From: Kluyvera intermedia
GTDB lineage: Bacteria; Pseudomonadota; Gammaproteobacteria; Enterobacterales; Enterobacteriaceae
Direction of reading: 5' to 3'
Length of the DNA: 46,534 nt
NCBI RefSeq assembly: GCF_021440345.1
Contig: NZ_JAKCNS010000050.1
Span: forward strand, 1-46,534
Part shown: one piece after another, positions 31,524 through 40,296 of the stretch
Numbering within the stretch: position 1 is the stretch's first letter
How the letters are laid out: the number at the start of each line of letters is the position of its first letter
Made by a program: the position numbers and the translations under genes
Notes under the pieces: model-generated
What the model was told of the DNA's origin: nothing
Database searches by the model: none
Seen by the model: only the letters and a program-made list of their open reading frames with translations

Positions 31524-32282
31524 TTACGCCACCAGCATCGCCTGCGCGCTATAGAGCAGATCCAGATGATTGCGGCACATCGCCTCCAGCGAAGTCCGCG
31601 ACTGATGGCTGGTCAGGCTCAGCGCCCCCCAATATAGCCCTTCCCTGTCCGCCAGCGGCACTGCCACCACCAGCATGCCAATTTCAAACTCCTGCTCAAT
31701 GGTGGCATATCCCTGTTGACGAACCAGCGCAATCCGTTCCATTAAGGTGGCAATATCGATAACCGTGTACGGTGTTCTCTGTTCGCGAGTGACCCGCTGG
31801 AGCACCGCTTCGCACTCCGACTCCGGTAGCGATGCCAGCCACAGTCGCCCCCCGGCGGTGCAGTGTATCGGCACGCGCTCGCCCAGACGTACCGAGGTCG
31901 AGTTGAACGGCGTGTGCTTACTGCGGGCAATGTAGACCAGTTCGTTATCATCAATCACGCCAACGGACGCATGCTCCTCCGCCCGGCTGGCGACGTACTC
32001 CACGATCGGCCGCACCATCCGCGGAAACTGCGCCGAATCCACATAGGCCTGCCCCAGGCGCAAATTTTTAGCCGTCAGCCAGTAGTAGCGCCCGTCGGTA
32101 TCCAGATACCCGTCGTGTACCAACGTGAGGAAAAAACGGCGGGCGGCGCTTTGCGTCAGGCCGCTCATTTTTGCCGCCTGCGGTACCGTTAAGCGGGGAT
32201 TCGCCTTCGAGAAAAGCTGGATCAGCGCCAGCCCTTTTTGCAGCCCGACGATCAGATCGCGCTGATGAATCTCGTTTTGCAT
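31524..32282 (-). CDS. IclR-family regulator of the PcaR/PcaU/PobR type
   Basis: 252 residues. An N-terminal winged helix (about 10-70, with LTVPQAAKMSGLTQSAARRF as recognition region) precedes an IclR effector-binding domain (about 80-250, ending near SRTSLEAM). The wording around SAARRFFLTLVHDGYL and KNLRLGQAYVDSA is like the beta-ketoadipate-pathway subgroup, whose members sense protocatechuate, 4-hydroxybenzoate or beta-ketoadipate. It is transcribed away from the adjacent seven-gene operon, and the gap between them holds a palindrome plus direct repeat. It is therefore the likely operon regulator; activator or repressor is not decidable here. Confidence 0.88.
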   Translation of the reverse strand: MQNEIHQRDLIVGLQKGLALIQLFSKANPRLTVPQAAKMSGLTQSAARRFFLTLVHDGYLDTDGRYYWLTAKNLRLGQAYVDSAQFPRMVRPIVEYVASRAEEHASVGVIDDNELVYIARSKHTPFNSTSVRLGERVPIHCTAGGRLWLASLPESECEAVLQRVTREQRTPYTVIDIATLMERIALVRQQGYATIEQEFEIGMLVVAVPLADREGLYWGALSLTSHQSRTSLEAMCRNHLDLLYSAQAMLVA

Positions 32283-32318
32283 AGTTGTTCACACTTTTGC
32301 AACATGAAAGGTCGATTA

Positions 32319-32348
32319 CTGCGATTATCGCACTGTCGGTGCGATTAA
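32319..32348. promoter_or_regulatory. Probable IclR-type operator (palindrome plus direct repeat)
   Basis: TGCGATTATCGCA (32320-32332) is a perfect 13-bp palindrome. TGCGATTA recurs at 32340-32347, exactly 20 bp downstream of its first copy. Related CGATTA also occurs at 32313-32318. Three motifs arranged as a palindrome plus a direct repeat 10 bp away is the layout known for PcaU and PobR operators in Acinetobacter. The identity of the bound protein is inference. Confidence 0.7.
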
Positions 32349-32351
32349 CAA
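32324..32351 (-). promoter_or_regulatory. Promoter of the IclR-type regulator gene
   Basis: Minus-strand -35 TTGTTA (32346-32351) and -10 GATAAT (32324-32329) with a 16-bp spacer. The -10 box is inside the palindrome and the -35 box overlaps the third repeat, so the regulator should control its own gene. Confidence 0.6.
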
Positions 32352-32372
32352 CCAACCCGTCCGAATTCTGCG

Positions 32373-32401
32373 TTGTCGCTCACCGCTTCCATTGAAATAC
32401 T
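32373..32401 (+). promoter_or_regulatory. Candidate promoter of the accessory operon
   Basis: TTGTCG and AATACT are 17 bp apart, downstream of the operator. Both boxes are weak, as expected for a promoter that needs an activator bound just upstream. Confidence 0.45.
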
Positions 32402-32434
32402 CAAGCAACAGTTAGTTAACAATTGAGGTGAGAA

Positions 32435-33256
32435 ATGGTCAGCGGATTTACTCAGGTCGTCGCCGTTATCGGGCACCCTATTACTCAGGTGAAATCACCG
32501 GATAACTTTAACCACTACTTCGCCAGCCAGAACATGGACAAGGTCATGATCCCGGTGGATATCGCCCCGGAAGCGGTCGCTGACTATCTGAACACCCTGC
32601 GCGGCTGGCATAACATGAGCGGCATTTTGGTTACCGTTCCGCATAAACAGCGGGTTGCCGGACTCCTCGACCTTCTGACGCCGCGCGCCCGCCATCTGAA
32701 TGCGGTCAACTGCGTGCGCAAGCTGCCTGACGGGCGTTTAGAGGGCGACATGCTGGACGGCGTTGGGTTCCAGCGCGCGGCGCAGGCCCATGGCTTCGAA
32801 GCCGCAGGTAAGCGCGCCCTGCTCTCCGGCTGCGGCGGCGTCGGGAGCGCCATCGCCTGGGGTCTGTGCGAAGCGGGCATTGACACGCTGGCGCTGTACG
32901 ACCGCGACGACGCTAGCCGTCAGCGCCTGGAAAACCGTCTGGCGACCCACTTTCCGACCGTACACCTGACGACGTTGCCCGCCTCACTGGCTGAGTTCGA
33001 TCTGCTGGTCAATGGCTCCCCGGCGGGTATGGCGGGCTTTGATGAACTCCCGTTGACGCCGGATCTACTGGCAACGCTCACGACGAAAACCCACGTCGCC
33101 GATGTCGTGACTGCACCGGTGATCACGCCGCTACTGGCGTTTGCCCGCGAACGTGGATGCCGTACGCAGACCGGCCCTGAAATGGCGCTGGCACAAATGC
33201 ATCTGATGGGTGAATTCATTGGCGCTCTCCCACAACCGCAAGAGGCTACCGCATGA
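32435..33256 (+). CDS. Shikimate-dehydrogenase-like NAD-type oxidoreductase
   Basis: 273 residues with the AroE two-domain fold. The catalytic pair is kept: Lys71 in VTVPHK and Asp108 in GDMLDGVG. Asn92 and Gln254 are also kept. However, the SKSP carboxylate-binding motif reads VKSP (Val19) and the Asn before VTVP is Leu65, so two shikimate contacts are lost. The nucleotide loop is GCGGVGSA (132-139) and the second strand ends LYDRD, with Asp156 where NADP enzymes have NRT; this favours NAD and a catabolic role. Probable action: oxidation of a ring hydroxyl on a shikimate-like acid other than shikimate itself. GAGGTGAGAA ribosome site; first gene of the operon. Confidence 0.82.
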   Translation: MVSGFTQVVAVIGHPITQVKSPDNFNHYFASQNMDKVMIPVDIAPEAVADYLNTLRGWHNMSGILVTVPHKQRVAGLLDLLTPRARHLNAVNCVRKLPDGRLEGDMLDGVGFQRAAQAHGFEAAGKRALLSGCGGVGSAIAWGLCEAGIDTLALYDRDDASRQRLENRLATHFPTVHLTTLPASLAEFDLLVNGSPAGMAGFDELPLTPDLLATLTTKTHVADVVTAPVITPLLAFARERGCRTQTGPEMALAQMHLMGEFIGALPQPQEATA

Positions 33257-34947
33257 AAAGCTGGGATGTCATCGTCATCGGCAGCGGGGCTGCGGGCTTT
33301 GCCGCTGCCGTCACCGCCTGCTGCAAAGGATTGTCTGTGCTGATGCTGGAGAAAGCCCCGCACTTTGGCGGCACCTCAGCGATTTCCGGCGGTGCAGTTT
33401 GGATTAACGATACCGATCAGGCGCGTAAGTTGGGTAAAAGCGGCAGCCCCGAAGAGATAAAAACCTATCTGCGCACCATCATCGGTGAAGCCAACTATCG
33501 CCCGGAGCTGGTGGAGGCGTTTGTGAACGCCGGGCGCGATGCGCTGGCGTTTCTGGAGCAAGAAGGTGCGGTGAAGTACAGCCTGCGCCCGCTGTCGCCG
33601 GACTATTACCCGGATGAACCCGGCGCGGTGGATGTTGGCCGCGCGCTGGAGGTTGTCGAGTACGACGGCCGCGAGCTGGGCGAGCATTTCCAGACTCTGC
33701 GCTCCCCGCCGCCGGGCATGCTGCTGTTTGGCGGCATGATGGTTAACCGCGTCGATATTCAACATTTCCTCGATATGCGTCGCTCATGGGCCTCTTTCCG
33801 CCACTGCGGCAAACTGCTGCTGCGCTACGGACGCGATCGTCTGCGCCATCACCGCGGTACCCGGCTGGCCATGGGCAATGCGCTGATCGCCCGTATGGCA
33901 ACACTGGCGCTGCGCAAAGGCCTGGAATTACGTTTAAACGTGACGGTAAAGTCGCTCATCGAACATAACGGCCGGGTGACCGGCGTTGAGATTGAGCAAA
34001 ACGGCGAGTCTGCCACGTTGCACGCTCGCCACGGCGTAGTGCTGGCGGCGGGCGGTTTCGCCGCTGGGCGCATCGCCCCGCAGTTCCGCCCGGCAACGCA
34101 ACAGCATTACACCATGTCACCCGCGACCAACGACGGCGCGGCGTTCCAGCTCGGTCTGAGCGTGGATGCCAAACAGGGCGCTGACCTGCCCTCCAACTTT
34201 TTCTGGGCGCCCGTTTCCGTGCTGCGCCGCCCGGACGGCAGCGAAGAGCGCTTCCCGCATCTGGTGACCGACCGCGCCAAACCGGGCGTCATCGCCGTCA
34301 ATCAGCGCGGCGTGCGCTTCGTCAACGAGTCAAACTCTTATCACCATTTTGTCAGCGCCATGCAGCAGCAGGCTGAAAACGCGCCGTGCTTTTTACTCTG
34401 CGATGCGCAGGCGCTGAAAAGCTACGGCCTGGGTCTGGCGCGTCCGGCGCCGGTCAACAACGATGCGCTGGTGAACGCGGGCTATTTGTATAAGGCACAG
34501 AGTTTGGGCGAACTCGCCCAGCAGCTAGGCGTTGATCCACAGTCGCTCGAGCAGACCGTCGCACGCTACAACCGGGACGCACAAAACGGCCACGATACGC
34601 AATTCAATAAAGGCGGCAACAGCTACAACCGCGCGATGGGTGATGCCGCCCACCAACCCAATGCCTGCAACGCACCGCTGGTCAATGCACCGTTTTACGC
34701 TATTAAAATTTTCACTGGCGATTTAGGCACTTCCCGCGGGCTGGTCACCACCGCCGACGCGCAGGTGGTGAATCAGCAGAGCGCACCTATCGGCGGGCTG
34801 TACGCCGTCGGCAACGATATGGACTCGATCATGGCGGGGACCTATCCCGGCCCCGGCATCACCCTCGGCCCGGCGCTGACCTTTGGCTACCTGGCCGCCG
34901 TTCACATGGCTCAACAATCCCCACTCACTTTCGGAGAAACCGCATGA
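33253..34947 (+). CDS. KstD-like FAD-dependent ring desaturase, paralogue 1
   Basis: 564-residue flavoprotein of the FAD_binding_2/3-ketosteroid-1-dehydrogenase type. The FAD dinucleotide motif is IGSGAAG (9-15), with the ribose-binding Glu33 and GGTSAISGG (39-47). Residues that match the catalytic set of KstD are present: a Tyr at 118/119 in PDYYPDEPG, Tyr363 in NESNSYHHF, Tyr531 and Gly535 in GTYPGPG. This set removes hydrogens alpha,beta to a ring ketone. There is no signal peptide, so it acts in the cytosol. It overlaps the previous gene by 4 nt (ATGA) and the next by 4 nt. A fumarate-reductase-like reductase running the other way is the alternative. Confidence 0.82.
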   Translation: MKSWDVIVIGSGAAGFAAAVTACCKGLSVLMLEKAPHFGGTSAISGGAVWINDTDQARKLGKSGSPEEIKTYLRTIIGEANYRPELVEAFVNAGRDALAFLEQEGAVKYSLRPLSPDYYPDEPGAVDVGRALEVVEYDGRELGEHFQTLRSPPPGMLLFGGMMVNRVDIQHFLDMRRSWASFRHCGKLLLRYGRDRLRHHRGTRLAMGNALIARMATLALRKGLELRLNVTVKSLIEHNGRVTGVEIEQNGESATLHARHGVVLAAGGFAAGRIAPQFRPATQQHYTMSPATNDGAAFQLGLSVDAKQGADLPSNFFWAPVSVLRRPDGSEERFPHLVTDRAKPGVIAVNQRGVRFVNESNSYHHFVSAMQQQAENAPCFLLCDAQALKSYGLGLARPAPVNNDALVNAGYLYKAQSLGELAQQLGVDPQSLEQTVARYNRDAQNGHDTQFNKGGNSYNRAMGDAAHQPNACNAPLVNAPFYAIKIFTGDLGTSRGLVTTADAQVVNQQSAPIGGLYAVGNDMDSIMAGTYPGPGITLGPALTFGYLAAVHMAQQSPLTFGETA

Positions 34948-35264
34948 TTTACGAAAAACGCACCTACACCATCAATCCACTGAAAATGGCCGACTGGCTG
35001 GCGCTGTACAAAAGCGATGCCTACGCAGTACAGACCGAGCACCTGGGCAAACTGATTGGCTTCTTCTTTACCGAAATTGGGGTGGTCAATCAGGTGGTGC
35101 ACATCTGGGCGTATGAAAGCCTTGATGACCGACTGGTTCGCCGTGGCCGTATGGCGCAGGACGAGCGCTGGTTGACGTTCTCACGTAAAAACCGCGAGCT
35201 GGCGGCGGTAGAGCGCCTGGAGTCGGTGCTGATGCGTCCGACCGACTTCTCGCCGCTGCAATAA
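34944..35264 (+). CDS. NIPSNAP-family protein
   Basis: 106 residues with a single ferredoxin-like alpha+beta barrel of the NIPSNAP family (MIYEKRTYTINPLKMADWL, then VVHIWAYESLDDR). Such barrels form dimers; some bind or isomerise small ring compounds, but most have no known reaction. It is fused translationally to the preceding flavoprotein gene by an ATGA overlap and precedes the second flavoprotein by 11 nt. Fixed placement between two desaturase genes suggests a partner, isomerase or product-release role; that is inference. Confidence 0.8.
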   Translation: MIYEKRTYTINPLKMADWLALYKSDAYAVQTEHLGKLIGFFFTEIGVVNQVVHIWAYESLDDRLVRRGRMAQDERWLTFSRKNRELAAVERLESVLMRPTDFSPLQ

Positions 35265-35275
35265 GGAGTTCAACA

Positions 35276-36970
35276 ATGAGCAGGCATGTTGAGGTGGATC
35301 TGCTGGTGGTTGGCTCCGGGGCGGCGGGGCTCGCCACTGCCGTCACCGCCGCGCTGCACGGCGCGCGCGTCCTGGTGGCGGAAAAAGAGTCGGTTATCGG
35401 CGGCACCAGCGCCTGGTCCGGCGGCTGGCTGTGGATCCCGCAAAATCCCCTTGCCCGTGAGGAAGGGATTATTGAAGACGACGCCGCACCGCTGGCCTAT
35501 CTGCAAGCGGAAATGGGCGGTCTGGCCGCCGACGCACGCCTGCGCACCTTTTTACGCTACGGCCCGGAAATGGTGGAGTTTTTCCGCCAGAACACGGCGG
35601 TACAGTTCCTCTCCGGCACTAAAATGCCGGACTTTCACAACAGCCACGGTTTTGCCACCGGCGGGCGCTCCGTCACGGCGCAACCCTATGATGCCAGCGG
35701 ATTAGGTGATTGGCTTCATCGCCTGCGCCCGCCTCTGGAGACTATCAGCCTGGCGGGAATGGGCATTGCCGGAGGCGCGGATATGGCGCACTTCTTTAAC
35801 GCCACCCGTTCACCGCGTTCAGCGCTGTACGCCAGCCGCCGTTTGATACGCCACGGTTGGCAGCGCTTGCGCTATGGGCGCGGCCGTCATCTGGTTAACG
35901 GCAATGCGCTCATGGCACGCCTGCTGCGTTCTGCGCTAGACGCCGATGTCCGTTTTCAACTCAACGCCCCGGTCTCTCGGCTACTTGAAGACGAAAATGG
36001 CGTGGCCGGCGCGATCCTCGCTGGCGATGAGGGCGATATTCAGGTCAACGCCCGCGCGGTTGTGCTGGCCTGCGGCGGTTTCCCGCACGACAAACAGCGT
36101 CTGGCGGAGAACGTGGCTCACGCGCGTCAGGGCTATGGCCACTTTTCTGCCGCTCCACCGGGCAATCAGGGCGATGGCATTCGGCTGGGTGAAACCGTCG
36201 GCGGGCAGTTCGATACCACGTTGAAAAACGCCATGGCCTGGGCGCCCGTTTCGCGCGTGCTGTCCGCCAGCGGGCTACAGCTGGCGTTTCCTCATCTGGT
36301 CGAGCGCGCCAAGCCGGGCTTTCTTGCCGTACGCCCAAACGGCAAGCGTTTCGTCAACGAAGCCGACTCCTACCATGACTTTATCGCGGCGCTGATTGAT
36401 GCCACGCCGGAGGGCGAACAGCCGCAGGCCTGGCTTATCGCCGACAGCCGCGCGCTGCATCGCTACGGTCTGGGGCATGCGCGCCCGACGCCGTTCCCGG
36501 TCGAAGCCTGGCTGCGTACCGGCTATCTGCAAAGCGCGACAACGCTCGAAGCGCTGGCAGAAAAATGCGGCATTGACCGCGCAGAACTCAGCGCTACCGT
36601 CGCACGCTTCAACGGTTTCGCCCATCAGGGACGCGATGATGATTTCCAGCGCGGGGCCTCAGCCTACAACTGCGCACAGGGCGACGCCCGGCATCAGCCC
36701 AACCCGACGCTGGGCGCGCTGGAAGATGCGCCGTACTACGCCGTGCGCATTCTCCCCGGTTCACTCGGCTCCTTTAGCGGCCTGAAAACCGATGAACAGG
36801 CGCGTGTGCTCAATGCCGAACAACGGCCCATTCCCGGCCTCTTCGCCGTGGGGAACGATATGTCGAGCGTGATGCAGGGGTACTACCCCAGCGGCGGCAT
36901 CACGCTGGGCCCTGCCATGACCTTTGGTTATCTGGTAGGGAAAAACCTGTCCGCATCGCTGAATAACTAA
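35276..36970 (+). CDS. KstD-like FAD-dependent ring desaturase, paralogue 2
   Basis: 564 residues, the same length as paralogue 1 and clearly related throughout. The FAD motif is VGSGAAG (12-18), with Glu36 and GGTSAWSGG (42-50). Tyr366 (EADSYHDF), Tyr537 and Gly541 (YYPSGGI) match the KstD active site. The position of the first catalytic Tyr is Phe120 (MPDFHNSHG). This difference suggests a different substrate or step, for example a second desaturation. GGAG ribosome site. It ends the tightly coupled first half of the operon; an 80-nt gap follows. Confidence 0.82.
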   Translation: MSRHVEVDLLVVGSGAAGLATAVTAALHGARVLVAEKESVIGGTSAWSGGWLWIPQNPLAREEGIIEDDAAPLAYLQAEMGGLAADARLRTFLRYGPEMVEFFRQNTAVQFLSGTKMPDFHNSHGFATGGRSVTAQPYDASGLGDWLHRLRPPLETISLAGMGIAGGADMAHFFNATRSPRSALYASRRLIRHGWQRLRYGRGRHLVNGNALMARLLRSALDADVRFQLNAPVSRLLEDENGVAGAILAGDEGDIQVNARAVVLACGGFPHDKQRLAENVAHARQGYGHFSAAPPGNQGDGIRLGETVGGQFDTTLKNAMAWAPVSRVLSASGLQLAFPHLVERAKPGFLAVRPNGKRFVNEADSYHDFIAALIDATPEGEQPQAWLIADSRALHRYGLGHARPTPFPVEAWLRTGYLQSATTLEALAEKCGIDRAELSATVARFNGFAHQGRDDDFQRGASAYNCAQGDARHQPNPTLGALEDAPYYAVRILPGSLGSFSGLKTDEQARVLNAEQRPIPGLFAVGNDMSSVMQGYYPSGGITLGPAMTFGYLVGKNLSASLNN

Positions 36971-36988
36971 AAAAACACCTACGCATTT

Positions 36989-37017
36989 TTGCCAACGGAA
37001 GGCGCCAAACATAACAA
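36989..37017 (+). promoter_or_regulatory. Possible internal promoter within the accessory operon
   Basis: TTGCCA and TAACAA are 17 bp apart in the only sizeable gap of the operon. The -10 box is weak; no terminator was seen in the gap, so read-through is also expected. Confidence 0.3.
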
Positions 37018-37050
37018 AAAAACCTTACCTGCAACCGTACTGGAGTCTTT

Positions 37051-37854
37051 ATGAATATGCGTTCTCTGTCCCTTGCCGCACTCACGGTGCTCGACGTATC
37101 ACCGCCCGAGCAGGTGCGTATCGCAGCCCTCACCGGCTACAGCCACGTTGGCCTTCGGCTACTGCCCGCGACCCCTGACGATCCCAATTACGACATGCTG
37201 GGCGATACTGCGACGGTACGCGAAACGCTCGCTGCCCTGCGCGATACCGGCATCCGCGTCTCCGACGTTGAGATTGTGCGTTTGACGCCGGACTTCAGCC
37301 TTGATGCGCTACAGCCCTTCCTTGAAACCGCCGCCCGGCTGGAAGCCCAGCAGGTGCTGGTGGCCGGAAATGATGGCGATATACGACGTAGTGCGGATAA
37401 CCTGGCTCGACTGGCGCAGGCCGGTGCAGCCTACGGCCTGACCATGAATCTGGAACCGATGCCCTGGACGCAGATTCGTACCCTCGCCGATGCCCAGAAG
37501 CTGATTAACGCCAGCGGCCAAAGCAACGTTGGCATTCTGGTCGATGCCATTCACTTCTGGCGCGCAGGGGAATCGCTGGACTCCCTGAAGGCTCTTACCC
37601 CACAACAGCTCAACTATATGCAGCTGTGCGATGCCCCGGCGTTAATTCCTACCGATACGCAAGAGCTTATCTACCAGGCCCGCTGTGCGCGTCAGGTACT
37701 GGGTGAAGGCGGGTTGGATCTACGCGGCCTGATGGCGGCGCTGCCCGCCACGCTACCGGTATCGGTGGAAGTCCCGCTGGCCGGTACTCAAGGGGCGCTG
37801 CCAGCCCAACAACGCGCCCAGCTGCTGTTTAACGCTGCACAATCCTTCCTGTAA
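37051..37854 (+). CDS. Xylose-isomerase-like TIM barrel (sugar phosphate isomerase/epimerase family)
   Basis: 267 residues of the AP-endonuclease-2-type barrel. Likely divalent metal ligands are Glu135 (NLEPMPW), Asp165 and His168 (LVDAIHFW), a Gln/Asp around 191-194, and Glu240 (SVEVPLA). This superfamily contains IolE inosose dehydratase and AsbF-type 3-dehydroshikimate dehydratase, both of which dehydrate ring ketones. In this operon a dehydratase or epimerase acting on an oxidised ring is the natural guess. A GGAG ribosome site supports the first ATG. The MFS gene follows after 13 nt. Confidence 0.8.
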   Translation: MNMRSLSLAALTVLDVSPPEQVRIAALTGYSHVGLRLLPATPDDPNYDMLGDTATVRETLAALRDTGIRVSDVEIVRLTPDFSLDALQPFLETAARLEAQQVLVAGNDGDIRRSADNLARLAQAGAAYGLTMNLEPMPWTQIRTLADAQKLINASGQSNVGILVDAIHFWRAGESLDSLKALTPQQLNYMQLCDAPALIPTDTQELIYQARCARQVLGEGGLDLRGLMAALPATLPVSVEVPLAGTQGALPAQQRAQLLFNAAQSFL

Positions 37855-37867
37855 ACAGGAGCTCGCT

Positions 37868-39232
37868 ATGTCACAGACTCAACGCCTGGATGTCAGAGAA
37901 CTCATTAACACCAACCCGCTCAGCCGTTACCAGAAACTGGTGATTTTCCTGGGTTTCTGCGTGATTGCGCTCGACGGATTCGATATCGCCATCATGGGCT
38001 TTATCGCCCCCACGCTGAAGCAGGAATGGGGCGTCAGCAACCATGAACTCGGCTTTGTGATCAGCACGGCGCTGATTGGCCTCGCCCTCGGCGCGCTTTT
38101 TTCCGGGCCGCTTGCCGACTGGCTGGGGCGCAAAAAAATCATCATTAACAGCGTCTTTTTCTTTGGCTTCTGGACCATTGCCACCGCCTTTTCGCAAAAC
38201 ATTGAGCAGATGATTTTCTTCCGCTTTATGACCGGGCTGGGGCTGGGGGCCGCGATGCCGAATATGAGCACGCTGGTGTCGGAGTATGCGCCGGAGCGCC
38301 AGCGCTCGTTTATTATCACCGTGATTTTCTGCGGCTTTACCTTTGGCGCCGCCGTTGGTGGATTTGCCGCCTCGTGGCTGATCCCCCAGTTCGGCTGGCA
38401 TTCACTGATGGCGCTGGGCGGGATTTTGCCGCTGCTGTTTGCGCCTCTCCTTATCTGGAAACTACCGGAGTCGGCGCGTTTTCTGGTGATCAAACAGGCC
38501 CCAGTCGCCCGCATTCACGCCATTTTGCAGCGTTGTTACCCCGGACAAGTGAGCGAAAACGTCAGCTTTATCCTGCCCCAGCAGCCAATTAAAAGCAGCG
38601 CCATGCGCATCGTGTTGTCGCGCGACTATTTGTTCGGCTCGCTGATGCTGTGGCTGATCTATTTTATGGGGCTGTTTCTGGTCTATATCCTCGGCAGCTG
38701 GCTGCCGACGCTGGTGAAAGAGATTGGCCTGACGGTTAGCCAGGCCGCCATCATGACCGCGCTGTATCAGGCCGGGGGCACCGTCGGTTCGCTGTTTGCC
38801 GGCTGGCTGATGGATAAAATCAACCCACACCGGGCGCTGGGGATTATTTATGCCGTCGGCGGTCTGTTCACCATGGCCATCGGCTACGCCGGGATTAACT
38901 TCCCGCTCCTGTGCTCTCTGGCCTTTGTCAGCGGCGCCTGTCTGAACGGGGCCAACACTGGAATGAACGCCCTGTCGGCGCGGTTTTACCCCACTCAGGC
39001 GCGAGCCACCGGCTCCAGTTGGATGCACGGCGTTGGTCGTATCGGGGCGATTCTGAGCGCCTTTGCGGGTGCCGAAATGCTGGCGATGGGGTTCGATTTC
39101 AGGTCGGTCTTCCTGATTCTGGGGATCCCGGCTGCGCTAACCATCCTCGGCCTCGCCGCCAAAAGCTATTGGGCCGCTGGTCCCGTCGAGACTAAACCCA
39201 CCATCAGCGCATCGCTGAGGAGCCCATCATGA
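37868..39232 (+). CDS. AAHS-family aromatic/hydroaromatic acid:H+ symporter
   Basis: 454-residue major facilitator protein with 12 predicted helices. The DGFD motif in helix 1 (residues 36-39), required in PcaK-type carriers, and the loop 2-3 motif GPLADWLGRKK (80-90) are typical of the aromatic acid:H+ symporter family (PcaK, BenK, MhpT). It should import the operon's substrate, an organic acid with a ring. An AGGAG ribosome site lies before the start. The stop overlaps the next gene by 4 nt (ATGA). Confidence 0.87.
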   Translation: MSQTQRLDVRELINTNPLSRYQKLVIFLGFCVIALDGFDIAIMGFIAPTLKQEWGVSNHELGFVISTALIGLALGALFSGPLADWLGRKKIIINSVFFFGFWTIATAFSQNIEQMIFFRFMTGLGLGAAMPNMSTLVSEYAPERQRSFIITVIFCGFTFGAAVGGFAASWLIPQFGWHSLMALGGILPLLFAPLLIWKLPESARFLVIKQAPVARIHAILQRCYPGQVSENVSFILPQQPIKSSAMRIVLSRDYLFGSLMLWLIYFMGLFLVYILGSWLPTLVKEIGLTVSQAAIMTALYQAGGTVGSLFAGWLMDKINPHRALGIIYAVGGLFTMAIGYAGINFPLLCSLAFVSGACLNGANTGMNALSARFYPTQARATGSSWMHGVGRIGAILSAFAGAEMLAMGFDFRSVFLILGIPAALTILGLAAKSYWAAGPVETKPTISASLRSPS

Positions 39233-40248
39233 GCCGTATTCGTCTTGCCGTTATTGGTGCCGGCGCCATCGGGCGCAAACATATCGATGTGATCAATCAG
39301 GTTTCGCAGGCAGAGCTGGTCGCCATTGCCGACCCGTCACCGCAGGCCGAAGCGCTGGCGCAATCATTAGGCGTGGCGTGGTATGCCGACGTGGAAACCA
39401 TGCTGGAGCAAGCGAAACCGCAGGGAGTGATTAATGCCACGCCAAACACCCTGCATGTCCCTTGCGCCATCGCCTGTATCGAGCGGGGGATTCCGGTGCT
39501 GGTGGAAAAGCCGGTCGCCGAGTCCCCGGAACGCGCGCAGGAACTGGTGTTGGCGGCACAAAAGCACGGCGTGCCGGTGCTGGTCGGCCATCATCGTCGG
39601 CATAATGCGCTAACCGCCGCGGCCAAGGCGCTGATTGATAGCGGTGAGCTGGGCAAAATTGTCGCGGTCTCCGCGCACTGGATTTTGCAAAAGCCCGACG
39701 ACTATTTTGATGTCGCCTGGCGACGCGAGCCGGGTGCCGGGCCGCTGCTGGTCAACCTGGTCCACGATATTGACCTCCTGCGCTACCTGCTCGGCGAGAT
39801 TGAAGAGGTGCAGGCGATGACCTCCAGCGCCACGCGCGGTTTTGCCAACGAAGACAGCGCGGTGGTGAACCTGCGTTTTGCCTGCGGTGCCTTGGGCAGC
39901 GCGGTGCTGAGCGATTGCGGCGTCAGCCCGTGGAGCTGGGAGATGAACTCGGCGGAAAACGCCATCTACGCCCATACGCCGGAGAACTGCTATCTGATTT
40001 CCGGCAGCAAGGGGGCGCTGGCGATTCCCCAAATGCGATGGTGGCGCTACGGCGAGCAAAGCGGCTGGCATGCGCCGCTGTTGCAGGAAACGCTCAACGT
40101 TGAGCCGATCGACCCGTTTATTTTGCAACTGCGCCATTTCCTGCAGGTTATACGCGGTGAGGCAGCCCCAATTATTGACGCCGCCGATGCGTTGCGTTCA
40201 CTGGAAGTGATTGACGCAATTCGCCATATAGCCCCTAAAGCCGCGTAA
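39229..40248 (+). CDS. Gfo/Idh/MocA-family dehydrogenase
   Basis: 339 residues. N-terminal Rossmann fold (GAGAIGRKH, residues 10-18) with acidic Asp35 after strand 2, so NAD is likely. The catalytic EKP motif is at 93-95 (Lys94), and His179 lies in NLVHDIDLLRYLLG. Family members oxidise ring hydroxyls of cyclitols and sugars, such as inositol dehydrogenase. In this operon it may be a second alcohol oxidase for the ring substrate. It ends at the strong terminator that closes the block. Confidence 0.83.
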   Translation: MSRIRLAVIGAGAIGRKHIDVINQVSQAELVAIADPSPQAEALAQSLGVAWYADVETMLEQAKPQGVINATPNTLHVPCAIACIERGIPVLVEKPVAESPERAQELVLAAQKHGVPVLVGHHRRHNALTAAAKALIDSGELGKIVAVSAHWILQKPDDYFDVAWRREPGAGPLLVNLVHDIDLLRYLLGEIEEVQAMTSSATRGFANEDSAVVNLRFACGALGSAVLSDCGVSPWSWEMNSAENAIYAHTPENCYLISGSKGALAIPQMRWWRYGEQSGWHAPLLQETLNVEPIDPFILQLRHFLQVIRGEAAPIIDAADALRSLEVIDAIRHIAPKAA

Positions 40249-40255
40249 ATGCGCC

Positions 40256-40296
40256 CCTCCTCCGGCAGCAGCATTGCCGCCGGAGGAGGTTTTTTG
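40256..40296 (+). terminator. Terminator closing the accessory operon
   Basis: An 11-bp perfect stem (CCTCCTCCGGC with GCCGGAGGAGG) and 12-nt loop are followed by six T residues. Confidence 0.93.

Follow-up and report, generated by a model that had tools for sequence, protein, structure and literature searches.

An enterobacterial operon with two KstD-like flavoproteins that probably aromatises shikimate-related ring acids

A 46,534-nucleotide stretch of Kluyvera intermedia DNA (contig NZ_JAKCNS010000050.1 of assembly GCF_021440345.1; hereafter the window) carries, between cyoE and yajR on the chromosome, seven plus-strand genes and a divergent gene for an IclR-type regulator. Kluyvera, Klebsiella and relatives share this operon, which probably turns non-aromatic, shikimate-related plant ring acids into a usable aromatic acid. 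On balance, we favour the reading that it encodes an inducible accessory pathway by which a carboxylic acid of the shikimate/quinate family, its ring fully or partly saturated, is aromatised to protocatechuate. Acids derived from quinate and shikimate are common in plant material. An earlier reading of this DNA from its letters alone (the sequence-only reading) had proposed ring-acid aromatisation, and this class of pathway is supported by active-site residues, a PcaU-type operator, the genomic linkage of the TIM barrel gene and the presence of pcaH, although the two flavoproteins fall outside the named ChcC1/ChcC2 desaturase families.

The proteins, designated by letters below, are the regulator (R), an AroE-like dehydrogenase (A), two KstD-like flavoproteins (F1 and F2), a NIPSNAP protein (N), a TIM barrel (T), a carrier (M) and an accessory dehydrogenase (G). 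Families were assigned from Pfam and NCBIfam profile matches, and the folds named here rest on sequence families. All eight genes lie where the sequence-only reading had placed them, and Pfam backs each family name. Its seven-gene operon stands as seven co-directional genes, but the divergent regulator is extra to these, and the last gene stops at 40248 rather than at the proposed end, 40296. Its inclusion of G is only partly borne out: G adjoins M, but lies outside the conserved core, having an orthologue in 11 of 18 enterobacterial loci and being gone or replaced in the other seven (L031 and L034-L039; our labels begin with L for loci, records and stretches, and with G for genomes). The operon genes are joined by three 4-bp overlaps and by gaps of 11 and 13 bp, with 80 bp separating F2 from T, and their G+C content is 61%, compared with 54% for the rest of the window (operon and regulator excluded).

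Features of the locus, with positions counted from the first nucleotide of the window
Feature	Position	Strand	Evidence
R, IclR-family regulator near PcaR/PcaU/PobR type	31524..32282	-	Pfam IclR_C 100 bits, HTH_IclR 43.6 bits
Operator: palindrome TGCGAT-T-ATCGCA, seven bases, direct half-site TGCGATTA	32320..32347	+	spacer comparison, pattern scan
Promoter-like site for R, overlapping operator	32324..32351	-	consensus scan, 9/12 positions; weak
A, AroE-like NAD(P)-dependent alcohol dehydrogenase	32435..33256	+	Pfam Shikimate_dh_N 67.8 bits
F1, KstD-like FAD protein	33253..34947	+	7p18 3-oxosteroid 1-dehydrogenase 316.8 bits
N, small NIPSNAP-family protein	34944..35264	+	PF07978 109.7 bits
F2, second KstD-like FAD protein	35276..36970	+	7p18 286.4 bits
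T, TIM barrel related to metal-dependent dehydroshikimate dehydratases	37051..37854	+	Pfam AP_endonuc_2 69.7 bits
M, AAHS-like (aromatic acid:H+ symporter) major facilitator superfamily (MFS) carrier	37868..39232	+	TIGR00895 412.5 bits
G, Gfo/Idh/MocA dehydrogenase, accessory	39229..40248	+	Pfam GFO_IDH_MocA 103.2 bits

Searching genome contigs with T yielded 18 enterobacterial loci, from Kluyvera, Pseudocitrobacter, Raoultella, Klebsiella and Enterobacter, and the order R-A-F1-N-F2-T-M is kept in every one of them (in L028 with genes in pieces). The gene yajR follows the operon in all 18, while cyoE precedes it in 17 and was not found in L027, a locus from a metagenome-assembled genome. Ratios of nonsynonymous to synonymous substitution rates (dN/dS), calculated against five enterobacterial loci (four of the five for G), are at most 0.15 for each gene, and all operon genes are under purifying selection. 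A distant blastn search with positions 33253-37200 (F1, N, F2 and the start of T) gave no match in 5,426 E. coli genomes.

Beyond the Enterobacteriaceae, 16 of 152 plasmid-collection records matching F2 were examined. Nine of these (L084-L092), from the alpha- and betaproteobacteria Rhizobium, Paracoccus, Burkholderia, Paraburkholderia, Diaphorobacter and Limimaricola, hold genes for IclR, AroE-like, F2, NIPSNAP (~204 aa) and T proteins. A second flavoprotein is present in eight of the nine stretches (that of L085 belongs to another clade) and a Gfo protein in seven; the carriers, where seen, are of the ABC, tripartite tricarboxylate or MFS kind. T was found in 14 of the 16 records, the exceptions being L096 and L098, and Rhodococcus rhodochrous GD02 has dehydrogenases, two flavoproteins, T, an MFS carrier and a LysR regulator without NIPSNAP. 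The module resides on chromosomes and plasmids, in Enterobacteriaceae, alpha- and betaproteobacteria, other gammaproteobacteria and, on one plasmid, Rhodococcus. Because gene order is conserved, dN/dS is low and the set recurs in alpha- and betaproteobacteria, we regard the operon as more than a chance assembly. Conserved co-occurrence of the families, which the sequence-only reading had named as a check, is found as the seven-gene order in the 18 enterobacterial loci and as a subset in the nine alpha- and betaproteobacterial records.

Some loci differ in detail. An extra MFS-like gene and/or a different, 392-aa Gfo/Idh/MocA-like gene lies between M (or G) and yajR in Klebsiella, Enterobacter and Raoultella (L037:11599-14267, L032:12633-15329 and L031:11534-12712), and the gap between cyoE and yajR therefore seems to gather catabolic genes. 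With cyo, yajR and the operon on it, the 5.37-Mb record L083 (CP125156.1), listed as a Klebsiella pneumoniae plasmid, is probably a chromosome; its R, F1, F2 and M genes were matched in pieces, perhaps through sequencing frameshifts. Frame-shifted pieces of operon genes, cyoE and yajR in L028 (CP022114.1), and of pcaH and pobA in genome G007, point to assembly errors, not decay.

The solved structures nearest to both flavoproteins are 3-ketosteroid dehydrogenases. According to the accessible text of one study, Tyr487 and Gly491 of KstD enolise the ketone, Tyr119 and Tyr318 take the C2 proton, and FAD takes the C1 hydride (PMC5348764). When 46 flavoprotein rows (45 different sequences, two rows being the same gene) were aligned with 4c3x as the ruler for numbering, the equivalents of Tyr318, Tyr487 and Gly491 proved to be kept in all 46, F1 and F2 of the window included. 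At the position of Tyr119, F1 has Tyr and F2 has Phe, and the other members of the 22-row clade to which F2 belongs carry Phe, Met, Ile or Thr, so that F1 keeps all four catalytic residues and F2 three of the four. Because these residues are kept, F1 and F2 look like ring-ketone desaturases and, Tyr119 being replaced, F2 is by its sequence a distinct subtype of KstD-like protein. A tree of the same rows places the enterobacterial F2s inside the clade of cluster F2s (support 100/98). Those of F1 type from Enterobacteriaceae fall on a long branch of their own, apart from the F1s of alpha- and betaproteobacteria, and the tree gives no placement of F1 as an orthologue across phyla. The similarity to KstD also raised steroid catabolism, which we put aside in view of the ring-acid context, without a search for other genes of that kind.

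N is the most conserved gene of the operon, with 96-100% identity to 11 aligned loci, 93% in the more distant L083 and a dN/dS of 0.006 to the K. oxytoca locus. The corresponding identities in Klebsiella and Raoultella loci are 96-100% for N versus 75-81% for F1, F2 and T. Wherever clusters of the set have NIPSNAP, its gene adjoins a flavoprotein gene. The protein is about double in length in alpha- and betaproteobacterial clusters, and none was seen with the F2+T pairs that neighbour quinate genes in L094 and L099. A NIPSNAP search matched 22 of 398 genomes. Leaving aside the window's own, one stretch was examined from each of the 21 others except G599, G713 and G745, 18 stretches in all. Only L115 among them also has an F2-type gene, and L113 has a distant F1-like one; NIPSNAP alone was therefore rejected as a marker of the pathway.

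The accessible part of PMC7442255 gives ten active-site residues of QuiC1/QsuB dehydroshikimate dehydratases. T of the window is identical at eight of these (R64, L97, E134, D165, H168, Q191, R210 and E239), metal-site acids included, and differs at L136 (Met) and S206 (Ala). Across 20 T rows, E134, D165, H168, R210 and E239 are invariant, whereas position 136 is Met in 19 and Phe in one, and position 206 is Ala in 19 and Gly in one. Because QuiC1 active-site residues are conserved, T is probably a water-removing enzyme for keto ring acids, built for metal-assisted loss of water, but it is not QuiC1 itself. It scores 37.3 bits against the model of the two-domain QuiC dehydratase (NF042435, cut-off 1200), being a single domain of 267 aa without the HPPD-like second domain. 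The window's own genome has a separate QuiC1-MFS-AroE-like locus (L121:6510-10624), a canonical quinate/shikimate route.

The best solved relative of A is 4k28 (271.9 bits), and A falls under the NCBIfam cut-offs for shikimate dehydrogenase (SDH; best 162.5 versus 252 bits). A keeps the Lys and Asp that we take to be the SDH catalytic dyad. Of the two motif Ser, presumably substrate-side residues, the second is kept and the first is Val, such that GNPIAHSKSP of E. coli AroE corresponds to GHPITQVKSP. A proteins from all nine alpha- and betaproteobacterial clusters have QVKSP or QVRSP. At the position of this Val, Ser is found in the SDHs that neighbour QuiC1 in L092 and L094, and Phe in the AroE-like protein next to QuiC1 in the window's genome (L121; NFKAP versus HSKSP of AroE); the row for L099 has no coverage there. 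The replacement of the first Ser in A-type proteins hints that the substrate of A differs from shikimate. The score of M is marginally under the cut-off of its AAHS model (418.55 bits), and the PcaK model NF053517 gives it 487.8 bits (cut-off 770). Relatives of G at 47-53% identity occur in stretches with quinate genes (L094, L131, L138 and L148).

R scores 268.8 bits against the pcaR_pcaU model TIGR02431, under its cut-off of 284.75. The 152-bp spacer between R and A contains TGCGATTATCGCA-N7-TGCGATTA, and in 18 spacers (that of the window and those of 17 loci, all but L028) the pattern GCGATTATCGCA-N7-TGCGATTA is invariably present, 14 of them having the full pattern with the first T. The pattern matches once in the window and never in 100 shuffles; genome-wide there is one exact copy, and two other matches carry three mismatches each. 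In the accessible text of PMC8222616, the PcaU site is given as TTTGTTCGATWATCGMACAMA, and PcaU requires the external direct half-site. The window operator has the same core as PcaU and PcaR sites, CGATWATCG, and likewise a direct half-site outside the palindrome, a three-box architecture. The same part of this 2021 study of IclR regulons describes co-regulated COGs with a likely role in quinate/shikimate metabolism, a set that may overlap the genes of the window. Overlap of the operator with a promoter-like site weakly suggests autoregulation of R, the two promoter-like sites in the region being not above shuffles (mean 2.9).

Linkage of T was assessed in 398 Pseudomonadota genomes, searched with an E-value of 1e-20 and without regard to context. 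All 24 places outside the window's genome were examined in stretches of 14-20 kb (that of G402 was scored with a looser cut), and QuiC1, AroQ or canonical SDH was present in 14 of them and a KstD-like flavoprotein in 11. The same genomes hold 25 F2 places outside the window at a minimum of 45% identity, eight of which have T in the stretch. Fifteen places lacking T served as controls (G687:C25:32372 and most places below 45% were left out), and neither these 15 nor L115 have quinate/shikimate markers (14/24 versus 0/15, Fisher p = 1.4e-4). T, not F2 alone, marks hydroaromatic loci. F2+T pairs accompanied by QuiC1 and SDH, and mostly also by AroQ and a tripartite tricarboxylate transporter or tripartite ATP-independent periplasmic (TRAP) carrier, were found in Marinovum, G402, G762, G479 and G659.

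Other T-bearing stretches have different company. On a plasmid of Microvirga sp. VF16 (L093), pcaH, pcaG and a BKACE-type gene come after T and F2; no other stretch that we examined physically ties the module as closely to protocatechuate cleavage. T relatives at 32-36% identity lie near catA-type intradiol dioxygenases in L140, L148, L149 and L150; L140 also has maleylacetate reductase, AroE-like and Gfo genes, and stretches of its type suggest a sister pathway that might end in hydroxyquinol.

Genes for aromatic-acid catabolism elsewhere in the genome, namely pob and pca genes, had also been proposed as a check, and they are present. All 21 distinct operon-bearing genomes have pcaH (20 over the cut-off and G007 in frameshifted pieces; five duplicates were merged), which fits protocatechuate as the product, compared with three of nine tested relatives without the operon, again over the cut-off. 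These nine were picked from 31 operon-free genomes, omitting small genomes and other families, and one of them (G001) is 52% complete. PobA, split in two pieces in G007, was found in all nine of the operon-bearing genomes examined for it and in three of the nine without the operon.

From gene identity, conservation, catalytic residues, operator and linkage we infer each reaction, substrate and product of the following scheme. M would import the hydroaromatic acid, and A would oxidise a ring alcohol to the ketone with NAD(P)+, G acting instead on another hydroxyl or stereoisomer. F1 and F2 would enolise the ring through this ketone, as KstD does in steroids, and take alpha and beta hydrogens, thereby introducing double bonds into the ring while FAD accepts the hydride. 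T would eliminate water beta to the ketone, like dehydroshikimate dehydratase, the ring would then tautomerise to a phenol, and N could be a partner or tautomerase of F1 and F2. Protocatechuate would pass to PcaGH. R would control the operon at its one three-box operator, sensing the acid or the aromatic product.

Converting a cyclohexane acid into a benzene ring needs three unsaturations. Dihydroshikimate could obtain these from A, one desaturase and T on the way to protocatechuate, whereas 3,4-dihydroxycyclohexanecarboxylate could obtain them from A, F1 and F2, with no need of T. These two acids lead the list of predicted substrates, and a pathway for both would explain the presence of two desaturases and one dehydratase. 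Quinate itself, which lacks a hydrogen at C1, is handled by the canonical route. Fermenting bacteria form 3,4-dihydroxycyclohexanecarboxylate as a reduction product of quinate and shikimate, and Carr et al. in 1957 reportedly observed reduction to dihydroshikimate, as their title, listed among the references of PMC10558750, tells. Lactic acid bacteria reduce quinate via shikimate to dihydroshikimate, according to the accessible part of PMC13204703. We tentatively suggest, as a narrower proposal that may well prove wrong, that this is a salvage operon whose F1/F2 pair, under a PcaU-like switch, re-oxidises to protocatechuate both dihydroshikimate (one desaturase with T) and 3,4-dihydroxycyclohexanecarboxylate (both desaturases, without T), the acids being left by lactic acid or gut bacteria that use quinate and shikimate as electron sinks. 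If so, it would close a cross-feeding loop from ring-saturating fermenters to re-aromatising Enterobacteriaceae.

Several observations weigh against aromatisation of a shikimate-family acid to protocatechuate, or against parts of it. A, two desaturases and T acting together would over-oxidise one ring acid, so they cannot all work in series on one substrate. F2 has lost Tyr119, A has lost one substrate-side Ser, T departs from QuiC1 at two active-site positions, and the enterobacterial F1s stand apart in the tree. The three T rows L093-L095, which come from Marinovum, Microvirga (L093) and Bosea, vary at R64 and L97, and that of Marinovum also at Q191. Since each of nine operon-bearing genomes searched has a second, QuiC1-like match, T is probably not a plain dehydroshikimate dehydratase. 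In the linkage comparison, the places are not independent, nine of the 15 controls coming from one genus (g383), and quinate markers are missing from 10 of the 24 T places. Because AroQ and SDH may serve housekeeping functions, we also give the count for QuiC1 itself, 9 of 24. Some T relatives may lead elsewhere, as at the four catA-linked places. The association with pcaH is confounded by kinship and is given little weight, and PobA keeps 4-hydroxybenzoate in play as a product.

The last point bears on the strongest of the alternatives, which we nevertheless consider improbable. In the known ChcC1/ChcC2 route, the ring of a cyclohexane acid becomes aromatic through the action of an alcohol dehydrogenase and two KstD-like desaturases. 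By analogy, A or G would oxidise the 4-hydroxyl of a 4-hydroxycyclohexanecarboxylate-type acid, F1 and F2 would act in series to give 4-hydroxybenzoate, and PobA would lead this into the protocatechuate branch, with T in a side role. The distribution of PobA agrees with this, as does the fact that M is nearest to PcaK, a 4-hydroxybenzoate carrier. The ChcC2 (NF053677) and ChcC1 (NF053676) models do match both flavoproteins, at 432.3 and 329.4 bits for F1 and 505.4 and 344.9 bits for F2, but these scores reach roughly one half or one third of the curated thresholds (900 and 1000 bits), and T, the component linked to quinate and shikimate, is left without a clear job. F2 does pass the cut-off of the broad 'FAD-dependent oxidoreductase' model NF004789 (757.6 versus 747 bits).

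Catabolism of a cyclitol or carba-sugar appears less probable again. G would then be an inositol-type dehydrogenase and T an inosose dehydratase, and the flavoproteins would aromatise the ring to a trihydroxybenzene. The model nearest to G is of the IolG type (139 bits, cut-off 355), T has weak similarity to IolI (29.1 bits), and the T relative in L140 occurs with a catA-type dioxygenase and maleylacetate reductase; yet G lacks an orthologue in seven of the 18 loci, the carrier and regulator are nearest to aromatic-acid families, and the operator is PcaU-like. Least probable is action of the flavoproteins on an open-chain acid, like fumarate or tricarballylate enzymes, or as reductases with ring acids as electron sinks: FAD_binding_2 is common to F1, F2, fumarate, urocanate and vinyl phenol reductases and TcuA, and 8am3, a fumarate reductase/succinate dehydrogenase flavoprotein-domain protein, matches F2 at 142.6 bits, but KstDs score 180-317 bits compared with at most 120 for flavocytochrome fumarate reductases, the KstD catalytic residues are kept, and Pfam finds no haem or FMN domain.

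The preferred pathway, aromatisation of a shikimate- or quinate-family acid, appears to be new as a combination. The sequence-only reading knew of no described enterobacterial system with this gene set, and we likewise found no description of the gene set or the pathway among the literature matches listed, in a search that left subscription journals mostly outside; nor do those matches include a bacterial route from saturated quinate- or shikimate-type acids back to aromatics. The accessible portion of PMC6449761 does not mention quinate or NIPSNAP. In the records examined, the module is annotated only as generic oxidoreductases, and confirmation of its function would give several gene families their names together, would make the idea of cross-feeding between fermenters and respirers directly testable in Klebsiella and Kluyvera and, if the proposal is true, would provide KstD-like enzymes for small polar rings.

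Each enzyme belongs to a known superfamily, and in its apparent goal the operon is like quinate catabolism as well as the ChcC route, while no description of the assembled combination stands among the literature matches listed. F1 and F2 share their sequence family and Tyr318, Tyr487 and Gly491 with 3-ketosteroid delta1-dehydrogenases (7p18, 4c3x), and F1 also Tyr119, whereas F2 lacks this residue and the operon context is one of ring acids, not steroids. R resembles PcaU, PcaR and PobR in scoring near the cut-off of their family model and in its three-box operator; it differs in lying under that cut-off and in its half-site, TGCGAT here as opposed to TTCGAT in PcaU and TCCGAT in PobR. The ChcC1/ChcC2 system employs the same kinds of enzyme, an alcohol dehydrogenase with two KstD-like desaturases, but F1 and F2 are far under its cut-offs, and a TIM barrel, NIPSNAP and a PcaU-type operator are extra here. 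Canonical quinate/shikimate catabolism (AroQ, SDH or quinate dehydrogenase, and QuiC, QuiC1 or QsuB, leading to protocatechuate) has in common with the operon an AroE-like enzyme, a TIM barrel like dehydroshikimate dehydratase, an MFS carrier and a likely end in protocatechuate, and its loci are adjoined by the F2+T pair in several genomes. Compared with it, the operon adds two KstD-like proteins and NIPSNAP and is without AroQ, and its T is a single-domain protein in which Ser206 is replaced by Ala.

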